DNA from: Bacteroidia bacterium
GTDB taxonomy: Bacteria; Bacteroidota; Bacteroidia; J057
Direction: 5' to 3'
Length of the DNA: 46,165 nt
Assembly (NCBI GenBank): GCA_019695295.1
Contig: JAIBAH010000023.1
Coordinates: forward strand, 1 to 46,165
Positions 15,432 to 36,851 of the stretch are shown here, one piece after another. The notes beneath the pieces are model-generated. The model was given only the letters and a program-made list of their open reading frames with translations, was not told the origin of the DNA and made no database searches. Numbering within the stretch: the first letter of the stretch is position 1; the number at the start of each line of letters is the position of its first letter. A program made the translations under genes and the position numbers.

Positions 15432-16214
15432 TTGAGATACGTTATAGACATAAGTTATTTCGGAAAAAACTACGCAGGCTGGCAGATTCAGAAAAATGCA
15501 ATTTCCGTTCAGCAGATTCTGGATAAATCCTTGTCAGACTTACTGCGTTGCCCCATCTATACACTTGGAGCGGGAAGAACCGACGCAGGCGTACATGCTA
15601 CTCAATTGATTGTTCATTTTGATTATGAAGGCGAATTTCCCTTTGATTTTCTGTACAGAATCAATGCAATATTACCCCGGGATATCAGCGTTCAGAGCCT
15701 GAACCGGGCAATCAAGCCGGATTTTCATGCCCGCTTTGATGCCATCAACCGGCGGTATGCCTATCATATTATCCGTCAGAAAAACCCTTTTCTGGATAAT
15801 TTTACCTGGTATCACAGAATTCCGCTGGACGTAGAGAAAATGAATGAAGCTGCTGCTCTTCTTCTTCAATATCAGGACTTTGCTGCATTTGCCAAAACCG
15901 GTGCAGACAATAGTACAACCTTATGCAGGATAGATTATGCATACTGGGGCTTTACGCCGACTGAAGGACTTCCATTTGCGGGAATCTCTCCGGTCCTGAC
16001 TTTTCATATTCAGGCAAACCGTTTTTTAAGGGGAATGGTAAGAGCGATTGTAGGCACTTTGGTAAAAGTAGGGGAGGGCAAATTATCCAAAGACGATTTC
16101 CGGGAAATCATTGAGTCACTGAGCCGTACAAAAGCAAGGGAAAGTGCTCCTGCAGAAGGATTATTTCTTACAGGAGTGGATTATCCGGAAGGATATTTTG
16201 AAAAAATTCAATAA
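15432..16214 (+). CDS. truA: tRNA pseudouridine(38-40) synthase TruA
   Basis: 260 aa, normal for TruA. Converts U38-U40 of the tRNA anticodon arm to pseudouridine in the cytoplasm. It has the N-terminal MRYVIDISYFGKNYAGWQIQ signature and the catalytic loop GAGRTDAGVHA with the nucleophilic Asp51. RRYAYHI and FLRGMVRAIVGTLVKVG follow as in the family. The start is TTG at 15432: homology begins exactly there, no ATG lies upstream before an in-frame stop at 15417, and the next methionines are inside the domain. The 3' end overlaps the convergent lipoprotein gene by 7 bp. Confidence 0.96.
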   Translation: MRYVIDISYFGKNYAGWQIQKNAISVQQILDKSLSDLLRCPIYTLGAGRTDAGVHATQLIVHFDYEGEFPFDFLYRINAILPRDISVQSLNRAIKPDFHARFDAINRRYAYHIIRQKNPFLDNFTWYHRIPLDVEKMNEAAALLLQYQDFAAFAKTGADNSTTLCRIDYAYWGFTPTEGLPFAGISPVLTFHIQANRFLRGMVRAIVGTLVKVGEGKLSKDDFREIIESLSRTKARESAPAEGLFLTGVDYPEGYFEKIQ

Positions 16215-16696
16215 AAAAGATATTCTTCTGAAAGCGCAAACGATACATAAACCAACTCCGGGTTTACCTGAGGATTGGCGGTAATATAATTAATCCACCA
16301 CGTTTTTTCGGCAATCGAAGGCTCTCTTACATAAAACCGCTTATAAGTATCCCTGATAAATGCGTCTTTGTCCGCAAGCATATCCGCTTTTGAGGGGACA
16401 ATAATTCCGCTTCGGTTCATGAAGTTGCTCACCACTACTTCGTGTACGAGTTCTTTATCGCCGATAGAGGCAATCACCTTTTCTATTTCAATCAGTTCGT
16501 TGGCAGAAATCGCCTTTTGAAACAGATTAGCATACAAAATAGAAATATATTGTTGCTCCGTTTTGCGTTTGGTTTTTCCGGAATTATAAGGGTTTACGCT
16601 CACTTCATTCAATTCATATTCATAGACATCCTGACCGGTTTTACAACCCGAAAGAAACAGAAAAAGGATAAAAACCGAAAATATTGCTTTTTTCAT
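16208..16696 (-). CDS. DUF4214-like lipoprotein, shorter of a pair
   Basis: 162 aa. Lipobox LSGC, acylated Cys18. The mature protein is helical. The segments ISILYANLFQKAISANELIEI and YKRFYVREPSIAEKTWWI, then LVYVSFALSEEYLFY, resemble the LYxxxLgRxPsxxE...fl.SxEY layout of DUF4214 and related domains. Function unknown. It starts 39 nt after the stop of the longer related lipoprotein, so the two are probably one operon. Its last 7 bp overlap truA tail to tail. Confidence 0.75.
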   Translation of the reverse strand: MKKAIFSVFILFLFLSGCKTGQDVYEYELNEVSVNPYNSGKTKRKTEQQYISILYANLFQKAISANELIEIEKVIASIGDKELVHEVVVSNFMNRSGIIVPSKADMLADKDAFIRDTYKRFYVREPSIAEKTWWINYITANPQVNPELVYVSFALSEEYLFY

Positions 16697-16735
16697 GGAG
16701 ATTTGATTTTTTATAAAAGATAAATGGATTCTTGA

Positions 16736-17677
16736 TTAATTAAAACCGGCATATTCATCCGTTACGAGGATATCCGCCTGTACTTTCTGAAAATTACCCG
16801 TATTATTAAAGTCCTGCATGGCTTTAAAAACTTCTGCAGTTTTTGCTTCCCTTGCAAGAAGCGTAGAATAAGCCCACCGGATTATCCCTTCTTTGGCTTC
16901 GCGGGAATGGGTTAAAATGGTGATGTACTCATCCTTATTGGAGCAGGAAACCCCGAAAAGCGTGCCCGCAGTACTGTATTCAATTGTATTGTAGCAGTCA
17001 TTGTACTCAGAATCAGTTGGATACCTTCCAAATATATCCTGAAAACTGGCACGGATGAAATTAAAGGTATTCATATTGATTTTATCATATAATGCATTAT
17101 TCAGCATTCGCTCAAATACATCCTCCACTTTGATTTCGCCTTTACGATACGCAAACTCTGACTGGATTACTGCCTTAAATTTCCGGATAATAGCCCGGTT
17201 TGCCTCGACGCCCTGAGTATTCCCGGTAAGAGAATCCCCGAGTAAGGCATATTCAAAAATCCCGATTTCACTTTCGATGTCTTCGTTGGAAGCACCCTCA
17301 ATAAACCGGCCTTTCCATAATTCATACAAACGGTGATAATAGGCAATAAAAAAACTGCTGTCTCCTTCCTGATAGGTTGTATTGCTCTGAAGCTTGCTGA
17401 TAAGGTTGTATCTCGCCGATTCCTGAAGGCCCTGAGATTTGAGAAAATCTGTTTCTGACTGCATTTCGGCGTCGGTAGGTTCCCGGCCAATGAGGTCAAT
17501 ATACAAGCGGTTTACATAATTTTCGATGAGGATTGTAGGGATACCCTCATAAGGAGGAGGATTATTGTCCTCTATGATGATGAGCTTTCCTTCGTCCCTG
17601 CAACTGCTCAGGGAGAATAGAAAAAACCCGGCCAAAACCCATATTATCTTTTTGAAACTGCCTGAATTCATATACAT
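16736..17677 (-). CDS. DUF4214-like lipoprotein, longer of a pair
   Basis: 313 aa (311 if the ATG at 17671 is used). Lipobox SLSSC with acylated Cys26. After a short Pro-rich linker (DNNPPPYEG) comes the helical motif YVNRLYIDLIGREPTDAEMQ at about 53-72, and a second similar turn SFQDIFGRYPTDSEYND near 218-234. These match the LYxDLLGRxPtxxE pattern seen in DUF4214/DUF1549-like modules, so the protein may hold two or more copies. No catalytic motif. First gene of a two-lipoprotein operon with the 162-aa relative. Confidence 0.78.
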   Translation of the reverse strand: MYMNSGSFKKIIWVLAGFFLFSLSSCRDEGKLIIIEDNNPPPYEGIPTILIENYVNRLYIDLIGREPTDAEMQSETDFLKSQGLQESARYNLISKLQSNTTYQEGDSSFFIAYYHRLYELWKGRFIEGASNEDIESEIGIFEYALLGDSLTGNTQGVEANRAIIRKFKAVIQSEFAYRKGEIKVEDVFERMLNNALYDKINMNTFNFIRASFQDIFGRYPTDSEYNDCYNTIEYSTAGTLFGVSCSNKDEYITILTHSREAKEGIIRWAYSTLLAREAKTAEVFKAMQDFNNTGNFQKVQADILVTDEYAGFN

Positions 17678-24449: not shown

Positions 24450-24875
24450 TTACTCTCCCATGAATGAAAGAGGAGTATAAACCCCGTTTTCGCTGACCTG
24501 ATAAAAAAACAGGCTTTTACCGTTGGTAATCAGCAAATAAGGGGCTTTCAGTATCAGGTTGTATTCTCCAATCTGATATACAGTCATCTGAGTGATTTCG
24601 ATTTCCGGTGCTTTGCATTCACATAATATCAGTGGATTTCCGCTTTTGTCAAACACTACGACATCAAACCTTTTTTTTCTTTTATAGAGTTTTATTTCCT
24701 TTTCAACGGCAATCATGCTGAGAGGAACTCCTTTTTCCCTGACAAAATAATGCAGTAAGTGCTGACGTACTTCCTCTTCCGGAGTATAAATAATCCATTT
24801 TTTCCGACTGATGTCCCACACTTTTCTGACATCTCCTTCTGTATTTACTACGATTTCAAATTCTGGAAAAAGCAT
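24450..24875 (-). CDS. Orphan HsdR N-terminal-like nuclease domain protein
   Basis: 141 aa, matching the type I restriction enzyme R-subunit N-terminal domain (HSDR_N type) with nothing else fused. The PD-(D/E)XK core is visible: helix EEEVRQHLLHYFVREKGVP, Glu60, Asp71 in KRFDVVVFD and the CECK dyad (Glu86, Lys88), followed by APEIEITQMTVYQIGEYN. HsdR proteins carry helicase domains after this; here the protein ends at about the end of the nuclease fold. No HsdM or HsdS gene is near, so restriction is unlikely. A stand-alone DNA-processing or repair nuclease is possible. Predicted cytoplasmic. Confidence 0.85.
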   Translation of the reverse strand: MLFPEFEIVVNTEGDVRKVWDISRKKWIIYTPEEEVRQHLLHYFVREKGVPLSMIAVEKEIKLYKRKKRFDVVVFDKSGNPLILCECKAPEIEITQMTVYQIGEYNLILKAPYLLITNGKSLFFYQVSENGVYTPLSFMGE

Positions 24876-26910: not shown

Positions 26911-26950
26911 AAAAAACGGAACGCACTCAAAAAGCAGCGTTCCGTTTTTT
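26911..26950. terminator. Bidirectional terminator for sppA and LamG lipoprotein
   Basis: AAAAAACGGAACGC (26911-26924) and GCGTTCCGTTTTTT (26937-26950): a perfect 14-bp stem with a 12-nt loop. The A and T runs in the arms serve both directions, 14 nt after the sppA stop and 14 nt after the convergent gene's stop. Confidence 0.9.
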
Positions 26951-26964
26951 ATTTTAGCTGTGGC

Positions 26965-29910
26965 TTATTCTGCTTCGAGGATAATTTCTGCGATTTCAAT
27001 TCCCGTATTCTGTGTCATTACAGCAAGAATATGATTCTGATTCAGGGAAAGGCCGGTAATTTTTTGAGAAATAGTTACTGTTTGCCAGTTTGAGTTGTTG
27101 ATGCTGGCGGTTCCTTTACTCTGATTATCCACTAATATCTGAAGGGTTCCGCTACCGGATTTTGAGCGGGCTTTGATTTTTACATTATAACGACTGCTTC
27201 CGTTCAGGTTCGGCTGAAAATGATATTCTGCTTTGGTATTTGCCGGGAGTACAATATAGCTCAAAGCATTCCGGGTATCCGTTGTGCCTCCGTTTGTAAG
27301 GAGTTGCTCAGTTTTGATACTGATGTCTCCACCTGCATTATCGAAAAGTGCTGAGGCGAACCGGAAGTTTTTGCTCCAGTAATAAGGGTGAGTGGCTTCG
27401 TGCCATTCATCCAGCTGATAAAATACAGCAGGATTCACGGATTTGTCATAAATATAGACACTTCCCTGTCTTCTTACATTGAAAATCAAGGTTTCACCCT
27501 CCAGATTTATTTCCGCTACTCCTTCCATTGGTGCATTATTGACAATGTTGGAAATAGGATTGATATTGCCGGAAATCACGTACTTCGACCCGTATTTTCT
27601 TACTCCCACCAGAATCCGCTCGTCTTTGGCGTGAAAAGTGTACTTGTAATCCGCAGGATATTTGCCATTTCCGGAAGGGTGATTGCCTTCCATGATATTT
27701 CCGTTTCTGAAAACATCTTCGTATCGGGAAACGATACCCTGAACGTAAGAAGGGGTAGTCGTCATCCATGCGTATTCATTGCCATGCTCCCTGCATCCGA
27801 TTCCTTTATCCGGACACTGACGGTAATAAAAATTATAGTAAAATTCAGCTCCGGTTACAGAAAGATACTTCAGCAATCCTAACCACTGAGCAGGTGAATA
27901 TCCTCCTTCATTGATTTGATTGGAGGTTTTTGCACCAGTTTCTTCCCAAACAGGGGAAGTGTAGGCATACGGGTCAATAAAGGGGGAATAAAATTTGTCT
28001 CCTGCACTGAGCGTGGTTTCCAGTGATTTTCTCATTCTGCCAATACTGTTAATAGAGCCTGCCGAAAATTCATTCCAGTATTTGGGATAAAACGGGTAGA
28101 AATTTTCAGTAGCATAATATGTACCGTTAAATGGCGTCATCAGTTGGCGGGCAATCGGGTAATGCATACGGTAATTGCCCCAGTCTCCCCCAATCTGATA
28201 CTGAGTAAATTTAGAAGAAGGACTTACAATATTGGCAGATAATGCATCCGGAGCTTTCAAAAAAGCATCCCGAAATACTACGGTGTAGCGTTTCATTCTT
28301 TTTTCGGTATCGTAAGTGTGCCAGTTTTTGGCATATCCTGAAGGTGTCCACTTTTTGTAATCAGCAAGAATTCTGCTGTCTTTTTCCATGATTCCGCCGC
28401 TTCCGTCCGGGTCGGTATCAGTAGGCGGAGTGGCAATGCCTGCTACCATTTCACCATTACAGATAAATAAATCTATCGGGCGGTTCAGGAAGGGTTTTAT
28501 TTTCATCAAAGTATTTTTATAGGAAATACCATCCTCTGTGAAAGCGTCGTTGGGCGCAAGGGGGCTAAAAGAATATCTTTTACCAATGGGGTTACTTCCT
28601 TCACAAACATAATATCCGCCCTCTCCGCATACGGGGGTCAGGGCTACTTTCTGACTTTGTTTTGCAAAATTCTGCTTTTGAAAAATCGTGGTAGATACAG
28701 GTAATCCCGGATTCAGTTTTGCGTTGAGCAGGAATTTTCCGCTTACGGTATTGGTGTCGCAAAAGCGGGTGTAAGTTTCCGCTTTATCCACTACGGGTAT
28801 TGAAGGAATGCTCAAATAGTAATTCCAGTTTTGCGCCAGTTGGAGTTGTACAAAAGATGCATTTTGCTTTTTGGTACTATAACCCGGCTGATTTAACGAT
28901 ACTGCCAGGCCTGCGTTGGGTTCAGATATAGCCTCAAGGTCTATGAATAAAGCATTTCTGAGTAAGGAATGCCCGGGCTTAAACCTGGGAAAAGGAAAGG
29001 TTTTTAACTGCTCCGTTACTCCGTTTTCTTTGCTTAGGTTTTTGGGTGCAAAATCCATGGGATTGAGTGTTCCGGATACCTGTACATCAGGAGGAATACA
29101 ACTTGCGTTGTAGTTGTCTGTAAAGTCCCATTCGGCTTCATTGTTTTTTACCGATAAGTAATGTTTATAAATCAGGGTTTTGGGGACATTCTGAGTATAA
29201 ACCGTAATATCGTCCAGATCTCCCAGAAATCTGCGGGTGGGGTGAACACTTGCTTTATTATGTACACTCAGCAGGACTTCTCCCTCACTCAATGCGGGAG
29301 GGGTAGCGTCGGCAGGAATGATATCTTCCCTTTTTTCAATCAGCTGTCCGTCTATCCAGACCTCCATATCATGCGTATTGAAGTTGGCCATGGCTACAAA
29401 ATGATGAAACTGCCTGTCTGTATAATAGGAAAAAGATTTACGGTCAGTACCATTAAAATCCACCGTCATTTTGGCTTTTGTCCCTTTGGTACTGGTTGCG
29501 TTATTATAGGATACATTAAACTGAATTCCGCTGTAATCAATATTAATGCCTGCATTGGGCAGGGAAATCAGCAATGGATTATAGTTTTCGTTAAACCGGA
29601 ACCGGAATTCATACACCAGAATATTATTGTTCCAGGATAGTTCTTTTTCGTTTTTTACGGTTAATGCATCATCTGTTTCTTCCAGCGATAAATAAGCATT
29701 ATTTCCATTCTTACCAATTTTCACGCTTTTTGCAGCTGCAAAACTCCCTTTTCCATCTTTGCTTTTCCCCCAGCTTTCAGGAGCATTGAAGTTCCAGTAT
29801 TTTGCAGGATTGATAGTGGTGGTGGAATTCGTAGTACACTGTGCGAGGCTCTTACTTTTACTACATCCGGAGAAAACAACTGTAAGCAATAATAATATTC
29901 TGAAATTCAT
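26965..29910 (-). CDS. Large lipoprotein with LamG domain and C-terminal CBM-like domain
   Basis: 981 aa. Lipobox FSGC, acylated Cys16. Residues about 35-255 are a LamG/concanavalin-A-like jelly roll (YEFRFRFNENYNPLL, HHFVAMANFNTHDMEVWIDGQLI, GDLDDITVYTQ). The large middle (about 270-830) is unrecognised but carries enzyme-like features, with many Trp/Tyr and the stretches DLFICNGEMVAG, GGYSPAQWLGLLKYLSVTGAEFYYN and REHGNEYAWM. Then comes a beta-sandwich-like part (DERILVGVRKYGSKYVISGNI). Residues about 890-981 look like a CBM6/malectin-type module (AEYHFQPNLNGSSRYNVKIK...EIAEIILEAE). Likely a surface glycan-binding or glycan-cleaving protein. It lies 53 nt behind the second LysM gene and may share the operon. 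Confidence 0.8.
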   Translation of the reverse strand: MNFRILLLLTVVFSGCSKSKSLAQCTTNSTTTINPAKYWNFNAPESWGKSKDGKGSFAAAKSVKIGKNGNNAYLSLEETDDALTVKNEKELSWNNNILVYEFRFRFNENYNPLLISLPNAGINIDYSGIQFNVSYNNATSTKGTKAKMTVDFNGTDRKSFSYYTDRQFHHFVAMANFNTHDMEVWIDGQLIEKREDIIPADATPPALSEGEVLLSVHNKASVHPTRRFLGDLDDITVYTQNVPKTLIYKHYLSVKNNEAEWDFTDNYNASCIPPDVQVSGTLNPMDFAPKNLSKENGVTEQLKTFPFPRFKPGHSLLRNALFIDLEAISEPNAGLAVSLNQPGYSTKKQNASFVQLQLAQNWNYYLSIPSIPVVDKAETYTRFCDTNTVSGKFLLNAKLNPGLPVSTTIFQKQNFAKQSQKVALTPVCGEGGYYVCEGSNPIGKRYSFSPLAPNDAFTEDGISYKNTLMKIKPFLNRPIDLFICNGEMVAGIATPPTDTDPDGSGGIMEKDSRILADYKKWTPSGYAKNWHTYDTEKRMKRYTVVFRDAFLKAPDALSANIVSPSSKFTQYQIGGDWGNYRMHYPIARQLMTPFNGTYYATENFYPFYPKYWNEFSAGSINSIGRMRKSLETTLSAGDKFYSPFIDPYAYTSPVWEETGAKTSNQINEGGYSPAQWLGLLKYLSVTGAEFYYNFYYRQCPDKGIGCREHGNEYAWMTTTPSYVQGIVSRYEDVFRNGNIMEGNHPSGNGKYPADYKYTFHAKDERILVGVRKYGSKYVISGNINPISNIVNNAPMEGVAEINLEGETLIFNVRRQGSVYIYDKSVNPAVFYQLDEWHEATHPYYWSKNFRFASALFDNAGGDISIKTEQLLTNGGTTDTRNALSYIVLPANTKAEYHFQPNLNGSSRYNVKIKARSKSGSGTLQILVDNQSKGTASINNSNWQTVTISQKITGLSLNQNHILAVMTQNTGIEIAEIILEAE

Positions 29911-29963
29911 TTTTTAATTAATAATAATTCTACCTTTTAGACGCAGTACCGAAGAAAAGTAAT

Positions 29964-30782
29964 TTATTTTGCAGGAATTTTAAGTACTTGCCCTATTTTA
30001 ATGGCATTATCTGCCAGATTATTGGCTTTTTGAATAGATGCAACGGGAACTCCATATTTCTTGGAAATACTGTAAAGCGTCTCTTTGGCTGCTACAGTAT
30101 GCGTTTTTGCAGAAGCTGCAGTACCTGAAGAGGGAGGTAAAACTACCGGTTTCGTGCCGGGATAAGTATAATATTTTACCCCGGGATAAGCTTTTAGGGT
30201 AATTCCGGTACGAATTTTTTCATGAAGCATTTTTTTGTTTACCGCACACAGCAATTCAGCCGTAGTATTGTATTTTTCGGCCAGACTTGCCCAGGTGTCT
30301 CCCGCTTCGGTCAGGTGTTTTACTGTTTTTACGTTTTTGGGTAAAACGGGAGATAGTTTTACATATACTTCTGCAAGCAGCTCAAAAATAGCGTCACTTC
30401 CGCCACCATTTAAGCGGTTTGCTACGGCTCTTGTACCTGCCGAAGAAGTGAGTTTGAATTTGCCGCAGTCCAGTCCCAAAGAAAGAGAGGCTACTTCTGT
30501 TCCGGTTTCATTGTAAAATATTACTTTATCATACAAAGAACAATCCTCAGATACAGAGCCACTTACGTCATAAGACTCAGCAGAGGACATAATCCAGTTA
30601 AGTTGTTTTGCCTGCCACCCTGATAAAGGGATACCGTTGGCATGAGAAGCAGGCTCATATCCTGAGTTTAGTTTATAGGCTTTTGCGTGATGATAGGGAA
30701 CACCAAGGAAATTGCCCTGAGCAGCCAATGGAAAAACATTCAGGGTAATCAACAGAAGAAACAGAAACTGTTTTAGCGTCAT
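29964..30782 (-). CDS. Secreted LysM protein, second of tandem pair
   Basis: 272 aa. Signal peptide to about residue 22. An N-terminal domain of about 130 aa (YKLNSGYEPASHANGIPLS, CSLYDKVIFYNETG, LGLDCGKFKL) is shared with the upstream neighbour. Two LysM modules follow: about 156-199 (LTEAGDTWASLAEKYNTTAELLCAVN) and 227-270 (HTVAAKETLYSISKKYGVPVASIQKANNL...IKIGQVLKIP). LysM binds N-acetylglucosamine in peptidoglycan or chitin, so the protein should sit in the cell wall. The paired architecture shows that the two LysM genes arose by duplication. Its start overlaps the stop of the first by ATGA. Confidence 0.88.
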   Translation of the reverse strand: MTLKQFLFLLLITLNVFPLAAQGNFLGVPYHHAKAYKLNSGYEPASHANGIPLSGWQAKQLNWIMSSAESYDVSGSVSEDCSLYDKVIFYNETGTEVASLSLGLDCGKFKLTSSAGTRAVANRLNGGGSDAIFELLAEVYVKLSPVLPKNVKTVKHLTEAGDTWASLAEKYNTTAELLCAVNKKMLHEKIRTGITLKAYPGVKYYTYPGTKPVVLPPSSGTAASAKTHTVAAKETLYSISKKYGVPVASIQKANNLADNAIKIGQVLKIPAK

Positions 30783-31783
30783 ATTTTGGGTATTATTAAT
30801 TTTTGTCCGATTTTAATCGCGTTGTCTTTCATTTGGTTTGCCTTTTTGATGGCGTCCACGGCAATACTGTATTTACGGGAAATACTGTATAGTGTTTCTC
30901 CGGATTTTACAACATGACTTTGCTCCGTATTGTTGTCGGCCGGAGGGGTACTGATTTCGTTTCCCTTTCCGGGTATGTCCTGAGGTTTTGCCGTGCCGGA
31001 GGAAGGTTTGCTATCCGATGTGGCTGGCTTTTTGTCCTCTGCTTTTCCCGGATTTTCCTTAATACCAGAAGGTTCCTCTGTTTTTTTAGGGCTTTCACCT
31101 GCAATCAGTGCTGAAAAATCCGATTTCATATATTCTTTTTTAAGTTCGGGATATTTGAAATAAGGATAATTCTGATAAATAATGAGTTCATCTCCCGGGG
31201 TAGGAGTCCATTGGGTATTTTTCTTATTTACCGCTGCAATCAAATCAATGGTTGTATTATAGTTTTTGGCGATAATATCCCATTTATCTCCTTCTGCCAC
31301 TATATGTGTTAATTGACTAATTTCCTCAGGTGCAGTATTTTTCAGGTCTTCCGCAAAAGAAGCGAGCAAAATTTCAAGTGTATCCAAAGCCTGAACACTT
31401 AGCCCGTTGCCTTTCTTATGGGCAATCGGGATAGCCGGGTCGGGCAATATTTTTTTACATTTAAAAGCCAGGTCCAGCCGACCGGTAATCCGGTTTTTGT
31501 CGTTGTAAAAAATAAATACATCATTGGGGTCATAGCATTTAAATACAGGCTCGATATAGGAAGCTGTATCGGAAAGGACCGTCATCAGGGTATTGACCTG
31601 TTCAGGGGATAACAGAATCCCATTTTCTGCTTTGGGTGGCTCAAAACCTGCTCTTAATTTATAATAATGAACTCTTGTAAACTCCCTTCCCGGAAAAAAA
31701 GGAGTCTGCTGTGCAACTATTTCTGCAAAAGAAATTCCTGAAAGCAACAGGACAAGACCATACATAAAAAGACTAAGCTTCAT
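30779..31783 (-). CDS. Secreted LysM protein, first of tandem pair
   Basis: 334 aa. Signal peptide to about residue 25. The shared N-terminal domain (YYKLRAGFEPPKAENGILLSP, CYDPNDVFIFYNDKN, LAFKCKKILPD) spans about 35-150. LysM 1 at about 160-204 (HIVAEGDKWDIIAKNYNTTIDLIAAVN) precedes a disordered linker rich in Lys, Pro, Ser and Glu (about 218-285). LysM 2 is at 290-333 (HVVKSGETLYSISRKYSIAVDAIKKAN). Likely a peptidoglycan-binding scaffold. It follows the L,D-transpeptidase gene by 41 nt and overlaps the next LysM gene, so the three are one operon. Confidence 0.88.
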   Translation of the reverse strand: MKLSLFMYGLVLLLSGISFAEIVAQQTPFFPGREFTRVHYYKLRAGFEPPKAENGILLSPEQVNTLMTVLSDTASYIEPVFKCYDPNDVFIFYNDKNRITGRLDLAFKCKKILPDPAIPIAHKKGNGLSVQALDTLEILLASFAEDLKNTAPEEISQLTHIVAEGDKWDIIAKNYNTTIDLIAAVNKKNTQWTPTPGDELIIYQNYPYFKYPELKKEYMKSDFSALIAGESPKKTEEPSGIKENPGKAEDKKPATSDSKPSSGTAKPQDIPGKGNEISTPPADNNTEQSHVVKSGETLYSISRKYSIAVDAIKKANQMKDNAIKIGQKLIIPKI

Positions 31784-31824
31784 ACTTTATATATTGAAAA
31801 TTTAATTAGGTTGACAATTCAATG

Positions 31825-32457
31825 CTAAATATTGATAATCAGAACTTTTTCTCCGACACTGGTCACATCAAACAATTCTGTTACTTCCTGATTTTTCATC
31901 CTGATACATCCATGGGAAGCGGGCTTCCCCAGCAATCCTTCTTCCGGTGTGCCATGAATATAAATATAACGACTGTAAGAATCCACATTACCGCCGGCAT
32001 TAATTCCTTTTTCTTCTCCTTTCAGCCATAATATACGGGTAGTAACAAAATCTGTTTTTACATCTGTTTCGTCTGTATAGATTTCAGCAATTTCTCCTGT
32101 ATATTTTCTGGCTTTCAGAATTCCCCCCAAAGGCACATCATCCCCGTATTTTTCAGCCACAAAATGAAGCCCTGTAGGAGTCTGATTACTTCCCGACTTA
32201 CATCCTGCTCCCGCTTTTGCGCCTGAAATAATATAGGTGTTTATGGCAGTCCAGTTTCTGACCCGGTACATTTTCTGTTCTTTGAGGGAAACCAATAAAA
32301 AATTACCCTCCTTTAACTGAGGATAATTCTGCTCTATAAATACTCTTTCTGAAATACCCGTGTTCATATCCTGACTAAATGACGAAACCGGAAGCCAATA
32401 CGCTGCAATTAAAATAAAAATTCTGAATAATAAGAAGCGAATCTGATGATTTTCCAT
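31825..32457 (-). CDS. L,D-transpeptidase (YkuD family)
   Basis: 210 aa. Signal peptide or anchor to about residue 29 (SSFSQ). The YkuD catalytic domain spans about 52-210: FLLVSLKEQKMYRVRNW, TPTGLHFV, IYIHGT (His169) and the active-site motif SHGCIRMKN with catalytic Cys184 and His182. Such enzymes form 3-3 cross-links in peptidoglycan or attach proteins to it, in the periplasm. No LysM domain of its own, but the two LysM genes follow at once, so the operon probably supplies the targeting in trans. Divergent from the small OMP gene at 32588. Confidence 0.92.
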   Translation of the reverse strand: MENHQIRFLLFRIFILIAAYWLPVSSFSQDMNTGISERVFIEQNYPQLKEGNFLLVSLKEQKMYRVRNWTAINTYIISGAKAGAGCKSGSNQTPTGLHFVAEKYGDDVPLGGILKARKYTGEIAEIYTDETDVKTDFVTTRILWLKGEEKGINAGGNVDSYSRYIYIHGTPEEGLLGKPASHGCIRMKNQEVTELFDVTSVGEKVLIINI

Positions 32458-32517: not shown

Positions 32518-32546
32518 TTTGAAAATATAATTAATTTATATCTTTG
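32518..32546 (+). promoter_or_regulatory. Promoter of small outer-membrane protein
   Basis: TTTG (32518-32521), 17 nt, TATCTTTG (32539-32546). The -7 matches exactly and the spacer is slightly short. Leader of about 35 nt. Confidence 0.5.
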
Positions 32547-32587: not shown

Positions 32588-33097
32588 ATGAAGCAAACGA
32601 TTTTTACATTCATCTTATTATCTGTTTTAACGTTTCAGGTAAGCGTGGCGCAAAGCTATGAAAAAGAAACGTTCAAACGTCACAGAAATTTGGTTTCTTT
32701 CGATTTAATGGGTTCGGGAGGGTATGCCTCTGTCAATTATTCTTATGTGGCAGCCAGTTTCAAAAACTTATTTCTGGATTTCAAACTTGGGGTAGGTACA
32801 CATGGATTTCCTCATGGATTCAGCCTGAACGTGGGTGGAGGAAGTCATTATTTTCAGGGAGGAGTATCCGGAAGATGGGATTATTATAAAGAACCCACAC
32901 CAAGATATACCATTGCCCCGGTGATAGGATACAAATTACAACCTGTCGAAAAAAGATTTTTCTTTAATGTGTATGTTACTTCTTTCAGAGACAATTACTT
33001 TGGTTCTTCGGGAGTAGGCGGAAATCCGGTAACGAAACCCTGGTTTGGAATCGGTACGGGATATTTGTTTTCCAAAAAGCCCAAAGCGGCAAAATAA
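32588..33097 (+). CDS. Small secreted or outer-membrane beta-barrel protein
   Basis: 169 aa. Signal peptide MKQTIFTFILLSVLTFQVSVAQ. The mature part has alternating amphipathic strands rich in Gly and aromatics (NLVSFDLMGSGGYASVNYSY, LGVGTHGFPHGFSLNVGGGSHYF, IGYKLQP, PWFGIGTGYLF), fitting an eight-stranded OmpA/OMP-b-brl type barrel with short turns. The C-terminal tail PKAAK is hydrophilic. Function unknown. The gene is monocistronic, with promoter and terminator. Confidence 0.75.
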   Translation: MKQTIFTFILLSVLTFQVSVAQSYEKETFKRHRNLVSFDLMGSGGYASVNYSYVAASFKNLFLDFKLGVGTHGFPHGFSLNVGGGSHYFQGGVSGRWDYYKEPTPRYTIAPVIGYKLQPVEKRFFFNVYVTSFRDNYFGSSGVGGNPVTKPWFGIGTGYLFSKKPKAAK

Positions 33098-35204: not shown

Positions 35205-36851
35205 ATGAAGTATATTATTAATATTAAATATTTTCAATTATTTTTTTTTGTTTTTTTTAGTTTAAAGGGTTATACTCAGAATACCAACCTTACTAATCTG
35301 ATTACTGCTTCACAATGGAATCTGTTGTTTCCAAACCGTGCAGGCACTTCACCCGGACATCCTCAGGGTTATACAACAGATTTTTATTCTTACAGTAATT
35401 TTAACCAGGCGGTTAATGAAATGTCTGATTATCTTGTGAATATCAGATTAAAAAATGGAGTTTGGGGACAACTTATCACAGTTACCCGAAAATCCAATGG
35501 CAATACCTATATTTACTCAGATGTTGATTCCTGGTGGTATTCAAATCCAACTCCCGAAACGGTAATTGACGTGGATTTCGCCGATTTCATAAACAGGTAC
35601 TCTTCTCAAAATAATAAAAGAGAATTGGCCGCATTATTGGCCAATATCTCAAAAGAAACAACCGGAGGCTGGCAATTGCCGGTTGGAGGCGGGGCTTACG
35701 GAGACTATGCAAACTGGGGGTTGTATTATGTGCATGAGCTGGGATATAATAGCTCAAATGGAGCTGGTACTTATTCTCAGCCACATGTTGAGTATCCTCC
35801 CAATCCATTAAAAGGGTATTACGGAAGAGGCCCGATTCAGCTATCCTGGAATTATAACTATGGGCAGTTAAGTAAATTTTTATATAATGATAAAAATATA
35901 TTGCTCAATAATCCGGATTCGGTTCAGATGAACGGGGTTCTGGCTTTCAAGTCAGCGATATGGTTTTGGATGATGCCTCAGTGCCCCAAGCCTTCCTGTC
36001 ATCAGGTAATGCATGATTTATGGGAGCCGCAACCTGGAGATTATCCTGCCGGTAAAATGTATAATAAAGGATTTGCTCATACCAATAATATCATTAACGG
36101 AGGACTTGAATGCAGGTCTGCCTCTTCTCCTGCATTTACTCAAAAAGTAGTTATTCGGTCTCAGTTGTATCAATATTATTTAGGCATTATGGGCTTTAAC
36201 AGCACTCAAATCGCAATGGAGGATTCAAATAATTATTCTACTTTATGTTACGAGTCAGCCTCCAATGCCATGAATGATTATATTAACTGTTTTGTCAATA
36301 GTAATCCTTTGCCTGTGGAGTTGAAATCCTTTTATGGTTATTCTGAAAATGGCAAAAATATACTCAAATGGGAAACGGCTTCTCCTGTAAATATCAGTCA
36401 TTTTGAAGTAGAGCGTAGGAATAATGGCTTACAGTTTGATGCATTAGGTACTGTAGAGATTCATCCCGGAGGGAATTATTCTTTTATTGACAGTAGTTTA
36501 TCAGAAGAACTCCTAAGCTTTTATCGCTTAAAATCGATGGATTTTGACGGGAAATATACCTTTTCCGGCGTTATTTCTGTCCTTAATCAGAAAGCAGAAT
36601 CAAAGCTGAAACTTTATCCGAATCCTGCCGGTAATGACGTAAGTTTAGGTTTCAGTAATAATGAGTGGGCGGGGCAAAAAAATGTATGGAACATAGTAAT
36701 AACTAATTTACAAGGCGTAAAAGTGCTCGAAATGGCTATAGATAAACAGCAAAATTCAGTTTTTGTTGGTAATCTTCCCGAAGGGCTGTATCTTTGGGAA
36801 GTAAAATCAGAAAACTTAAAAGAGTTTGGGAAACTGATGATTCAAAGATAA
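35205..36851 (+). CDS. Secreted GH19 chitinase with T9SS sorting domain
   Basis: 548 aa. Signal peptide to about residue 25. The GH19 catalytic domain (about 30-340) has the family signatures: LANISKETTGGW with catalytic acid Glu151 and VHELG with second Glu178 (equivalent to the two catalytic glutamates of plant class I/II chitinases). KGYYGRGPIQLSWNYNYG, LLNNPDSV, FKSAIWFWMMPQ and KPSCHQVM follow. It hydrolyses beta-1,4 GlcNAc links in chitin with inversion. Then an FnIII-like stretch (about 370-460, LPVELKSFYGY...) and a T9SS type A sorting domain (about 470-548: LKLYPNPAGND, GLYLWEVKS, LMIQR). So it is exported by T9SS and released or surface-attached. A bacteriolytic phage endolysin role is unlikely given the export signals. 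Confidence 0.94.
   Translation: MKYIINIKYFQLFFFVFFSLKGYTQNTNLTNLITASQWNLLFPNRAGTSPGHPQGYTTDFYSYSNFNQAVNEMSDYLVNIRLKNGVWGQLITVTRKSNGNTYIYSDVDSWWYSNPTPETVIDVDFADFINRYSSQNNKRELAALLANISKETTGGWQLPVGGGAYGDYANWGLYYVHELGYNSSNGAGTYSQPHVEYPPNPLKGYYGRGPIQLSWNYNYGQLSKFLYNDKNILLNNPDSVQMNGVLAFKSAIWFWMMPQCPKPSCHQVMHDLWEPQPGDYPAGKMYNKGFAHTNNIINGGLECRSASSPAFTQKVVIRSQLYQYYLGIMGFNSTQIAMEDSNNYSTLCYESASNAMNDYINCFVNSNPLPVELKSFYGYSENGKNILKWETASPVNISHFEVERRNNGLQFDALGTVEIHPGGNYSFIDSSLSEELLSFYRLKSMDFDGKYTFSGVISVLNQKAESKLKLYPNPAGNDVSLGFSNNEWAGQKNVWNIVITNLQGVKVLEMAIDKQQNSVFVGNLPEGLYLWEVKSENLKEFGKLMIQR

Follow-up and report, generated by a model that had tools for sequence, protein, structure and literature searches.

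A candidate three-gene peptidoglycan unit of an ElsL-type YkuD enzyme and two LysM paralogues in a Bacteroidia genome, with an independent LamG-like neighbour

The DNA analysed here (the window) is a stretch of 46,165 nucleotides, positions 1 to 46,165 of contig JAIBAH010000023.1 in the Bacteroidia bacterium assembly GCA_019695295.1. Four genes lie next to each other on its minus strand. These include, from upstream to downstream, the gene for a YkuD-family cysteine enzyme of apparent ElsL type (31825..32457, 210 aa), the genes for two putatively secreted proteins, LysM-A (30779..31783, 334 aa), with two LysM domains and a Lys/Pro linker, and LysM-B (29964..30782, 272 aa), with two LysM domains and a 4-nt overlap with LysM-A, and the gene for a 981-aa putative lipoprotein (26965..29910) with a LamG jelly roll, a barrel resembling those of glycoside hydrolases (GH) and a CBM6-like domain, judged here to be a neighbour outside the unit. 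The gene set, order, single strand and spacings of 41, -4 and 53 nt, computed directly from the ORF coordinates, are exactly those given in the earlier note.

A strong hairpin with a 14-bp stem follows the 981-aa gene (26911..26950), and T-runs flank it on both sides, indicating that it also terminates the convergent sppA-like gene; the strong end terminator of the earlier note is thus present, but it is bidirectional and shared. Neither terminator-like hairpins nor the Bacteroidota -7 motif were found in the two internal gaps (41 and 53 nt), and no visible feature would stop transcription on the way from LysM-B into the 981-aa gene. No clear promoter for the YkuD gene was found in its upstream region, where the sole Bacteroidota-type promoter (TTG-N17-TATCTTTG, 32519-32546), with a -7 motif conserved in the sibling genome G002, faces away toward the gene at 32588. 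The YkuD and LysM genes may nevertheless be co-transcribed. Elsewhere, the window encodes a GH19 chitinase carrying a sorting tail for type IX secretion (35205-36851, plus strand; Glyco_hydro_19 1e-44, Por_Secre_tail 1.3e-9), a 141-aa protein made up mainly of an HSDR_N_2 domain (24450-24875, minus strand; 1.6e-31) with no evident restriction enzyme adjoining, and two adjacent lipoprotein-like proteins (16208-17677, minus strand) with weak, sub-cut-off matches to DUF4214 and PBS_linker_poly.

The enzyme carries the YkuD domain (PF03734; 77 bits against a cut-off of 23.4, E-value 2.9e-21) and the catalytic SHGC motif as SHGCIRM, with Cys184. It had been called an L,D-transpeptidase; the family holds, and the type is changed here to ElsL-like, based on its best NCBIfam match (ElsL, NF040925), which at 139.6 bits is far ahead of the next model (36 bits) and below the curated cut-off of 270 bits. 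An Acinetobacter baumannii protein (CP040041) annotated as "L,D-transpeptidase" reaches 328 bits on the same model, above the cut-off, and is taken as ElsL; the window enzyme is 44% identical to it over 126 residues, and both contain RILWL..E.G.N.G and RYIYIHGTP....G.P.SHGCIRM. Six YkuD matches were obtained in the window genome, five of them above the cut-off, and the ElsL model matches only the protein at 31825-32457. None of 14 control genomes had a match to this model, though six of them have YkuD proteins. ElsL-type proteins were found in 5 of the 13 family genomes, and at 1e-15 the window protein was the only one in a 296-genome phylum sample (1/296), indicating that such proteins are rare in Bacteroidota and patchily distributed.

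ElsL itself has been described as a leaderless, cytoplasmic L,D-carboxypeptidase, active as a purified protein and dependent for its function on the active-site Cys, with orthologues counted only if leaderless and found mostly in Proteobacteria but in Verrucomicrobia as well (PMC8649774). The N terminus of the window enzyme is hydrophobic and of export type, as judged by eye, and by the same reading so are those of most related enzymes inspected in other Bacteroidota families. Because of these N termini, the window enzyme would fall outside the ElsL class as that class is defined and count as an exported relative. The enzyme is placed with the ElsL (L,D-carboxypeptidase) type, instead of with typical L,D-transpeptidases, on profile scores and pairwise identity.

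As the only YkuD protein of its genome with ElsL resemblance, the enzyme seems at least as likely to trim peptides as to cross-link them, and L,D-carboxypeptidase activity is slightly favoured here over transpeptidase activity; the sub-cut-off score (140 against 270 bits) and the cytoplasmic location of ElsL proper mean that its activity may differ. The competing reading is an ordinary exported L,D-transpeptidase, making 3-3 cross-links or anchoring proteins, with the LysM proteins as glycan-binding helpers and without the LamG protein. The YkuD domain, the export-type N terminus and the placement with LysM genes all agree with it, as exported YkuD proteins are usually transpeptidases, but the ElsL-type signature, missing from the other YkuD proteins of the genome, speaks against it, leaving it a tentative reading of appreciable probability.

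The two LysM proteins match PF01476 with 75.9 bits (LysM-A) and 74.3 bits (LysM-B) against a cut-off of 20.9, each in two stretches and not in one, with C-terminal LysM domains at 30788..30916 on the minus strand in LysM-A (residues 290-332) and at 29973..30101, also minus, in LysM-B (residues 228-270). The long Lys/Pro-rich linker reported previously for one of them belongs to LysM-A, at approximately residues 222-288 (30920..31120, minus strand), and coincides with the gap region of alignment A1. The N-terminal parts are paralogous (phmmer 2.9e-20), as expected from the duplication that had been proposed. Between species, the N-terminal domains of LysM-A are 69% identical, versus about 30% between LysM-A and LysM-B, so that the duplication is older than the split of the two species. 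A third LysM paralogue in the same genome (contig C215) stands alone beside an ffh-like gene.

The earlier note had left this shared domain unrecognised, and the searches lead to a Bacteroidota domain without a name, defined by a C..P...CxxC pattern and absent from Pfam, NCBIfam and the PDB. By itself, the domain has weak relatives in the window genome and in other Bacteroidota genomes; those read are exported- or lipoprotein-like in appearance and have no LysM, and the pattern is invariant in 12 such LysM-less relatives. The N-terminal domains of LysM-A (31334..31708, minus strand) and LysM-B (30357..30716, minus strand) join this family in profile-profile comparison (hhalign A2 vs A8, 98.3%, E-value 2.1e-14, 107 columns). 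Two of the three cysteines are kept in LysM-A, two in LysM-B and none in the C215 paralogue. On these domain relationships, which were computed directly, the shared domain is a degenerate member of the unnamed family. The structure model of LysM-B, built from two sequences, has a pLDDT of about 30 in this domain. One LysM-less three-Cys protein of the window genome (L119, contig C139) is encoded between mraY-like and murD-like genes (names given by eye), a position which hints at a link of the domain to peptidoglycan.

The arrangement was compared with the two further genomes placed in the genus, G001 and G002. In G002 (Bacteroidota MAG KLAP112, contig C422, CAUJFT010000422.1), the YkuD, LysM-A and LysM-B genes have the same order as in the window, with the same divergent gene and an SDR-like gene on the other side. 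The unit shares 62-70% protein identity between the two genomes, and the low dN (0.23-0.32) at saturated synonymous sites (pS 0.73-0.78) indicates purifying selection on the three genes. A hairpin terminator lies closely 3' of LysM-B in G002. The last LysM of G002 LysM-A has an in-frame TGA (L037, 10050-10052), beyond which homology carries on, and which corresponds either to an assembly error or to beginning decay. In G001, the gene for the YkuD enzyme (65%) adjoins a peptidyl-prolyl isomerase-like gene, with no LysM pair neighbouring, and no LysM neighbours were found for the YkuD orthologues in five other genomes. The three-gene unit is real but narrow in conservation, since only G002 shares the order; of the four-gene order noticed previously, the YkuD-LysM-LysM part is kept in this one sibling and the whole is not.

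A widespread LysM-pair operon was considered and rejected, as strong matches to the fusion of the N-terminal domain and LysM occur, among the 13 family genomes, only in the window genome and G002; outside these two, a search of the phylum listed mainly LysM regions. A phage or plasmid origin was likewise rejected, with LysM stretches alone being matched. Nothing on point was found in the literature on a YkuD-LysM-LysM gene arrangement. The enzyme in G001 without the pair, the other orthologues without LysM neighbours and the solitary third paralogue could be read as chance adjacency, with the enzyme and the two LysM proteins acting independently. The order and the short spacing have persisted in G002 although synonymous divergence is saturated, which makes such an explanation unlikely, and the earlier observation that a YkuD enzyme lacking a LysM of its own lies beside two LysM paralogues stands as an envelope unit with its order kept in G002.

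In the structure model of the 981-aa protein (pLDDT 82.7, pTM 0.89), a jelly roll at the N terminus is followed by a central barrel and, at the C terminus, a CBM6-like domain, all encoded on the minus strand. The LamG/CBM-like character given in the earlier note is borne out by the model and the relatives. Pfam LamG gave no match in the window protein itself, and the lipoprotein signal (VVFSGC) is a reading by eye. Residues 29-256 (29143..29826) have a jelly-roll fold (Z 17-18), and six of the 13 aligned members of the family match Pfam LamG (Laminin_G_3). Their top structural matches are clostridial neurotoxin lectin-like subdomains and an arabinanase module; the jelly roll being a common one, the neurotoxin matches say nothing on toxicity. 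Named matches in the viral structure library were mostly of LamG type. The CBM6-like domain (residues 848-980, 26971..27369) aligns with 2cdp_C (Z 17.2, rmsd 1.8, 116 aligned), and one of the 13 members has Pfam CBM_6.

The barrel (approximately residues 298-755, 27646..29019) belongs to no sequence family: no GH catalytic-domain Pfam match was found among the 13 members, nor any PDB sequence match with profiles A3 and A5. At residue 484 (28459-28461), 47 of 49 sequences have E or D, with C in the window protein and S in G002, and at residue 574 (28189-28191) E or D is found in 40 of 49, with G in both genomes. The motif that is INENGE in most relatives is FICNGE in the window protein, E487 never varies and E689 is retained. 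With two conserved acids lost from its sequence in the genus of the window genome and G002, the barrel may be inactive or altered.

All four genes had been read as one operon, with the LamG lipoprotein as the surface partner. The 53-nt gap without a terminator, the common strand and the single terminator at the end fit such a functional operon, but the comparative evidence, computed directly, does not. The G002 orthologue of the 981-aa protein (66%) is on a different contig, beside a rimO-like gene, and the G002 terminator after LysM-B closes the unit before any fourth gene; at the corresponding rimO-like locus in the window genome, no gene of this type is present. Among 53 loci with relatives of the protein, collected in one scan of genome contigs, none has a YkuD or LysM relative in the flanking DNA covered, at most 8 kb per side. 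About ten of the loci, with those from one genome counted once, are surrounded by glycosyltransferase, epimerase, acetyltransferase and asparagine-synthase-like genes (names given by eye), sets which are typical of polysaccharide clusters. The LamG lipoprotein was thus rejected as an operon member and as a surface partner, and a four-gene functional operon is considered very improbable. The 981-aa gene is an independent polysaccharide-related gene that adjoins the unit in the window genome, and the division of the locus into three genes plus one is held with high confidence. Close same-strand pairs of long relatives (~1,000-2,000 aa) were seen at L101, L141, L142, L144, L155 and L157, and the end of one L101 relative resembles, by eye, a type IX secretion sorting tail.

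Here it is proposed that YkuD, LysM-A and LysM-B form a three-gene peptidoglycan unit with an ElsL-type trimming enzyme, the 981-aa gene being independent; this reading as a whole is put forward at even confidence. In the proposed unit, the exported cysteine enzyme would trim stem peptides in the periplasm, taking D-Ala4 off tetrapeptides, with cross-linking as the alternative activity. LysM-A and LysM-B, made in tandem and secreted, would bind glycan strands through their paired LysM domains, and these co-made proteins would place or regulate the enzyme. Their degenerate three-Cys N-terminal domain may be a contact site for the enzyme or for some other protein of the envelope; a physical partnership between the enzyme and the LysM proteins is regarded as evenly poised. 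A further extension, offered as speculation and thought improbable, is that an exported ElsL-type branch in Bacteroidota acts as a sacculus L,D-carboxypeptidase positioned by a double-LysM pair, with docking through the N-terminal domain, a complex which to our knowledge has not been described.

If true, an enzyme class that recycles wall fragments in the cytoplasm would have an exported Bacteroidota branch acting on the wall with separate wall-binding partners, and labelling exported ElsL-like proteins as cross-linking L,D-transpeptidases would be inadvisable. The LysM fusion would also give the unnamed Bacteroidota three-cysteine domain its first context. The 981-aa protein possibly represents an unclassified barrel enzyme family tied to polysaccharide gene clusters.

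Among known systems, the GH101, GH30, GH98 and GH86 multidomain hydrolases resemble the 981-aa model at the fold level (Foldseek E-values about 1e-7 to 1e-11), but the whole-chain TM-scores are low, there is no sequence family match, and the two acids conserved in the relatives are lost here. The N-terminal domains of LysM-A and LysM-B align over 107 columns with the exported C..P...CxxC proteins (L111, L119, L121, L135 and others), which differ in lacking LysM and in having three invariant cysteines. For Csd6 of Helicobacter pylori, we know of no LysM partner genes. By description, Csd6 is similar in being a YkuD-type L,D-carboxypeptidase that trims stem peptides and does not cross-link them (PMC4599014). 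The canonical exported L,D-transpeptidases (Bacillus YkuD, LdtE and related proteins) share the fold family, the catalytic motif and export with the window enzyme, but the similarity is weak, with best PDB hits of 1e-4 to 1e-6 in the C-terminal motif region only, and unlike the canonical enzymes considered here it has no LysM of its own. ElsL is alike in the YkuD core, the catalytic Cys motif and the RILWL and RYIYIHGTP signatures, whereas the window protein differs from it in the export-type N terminus, the score relative to the model cut-off and the LysM partner genes.
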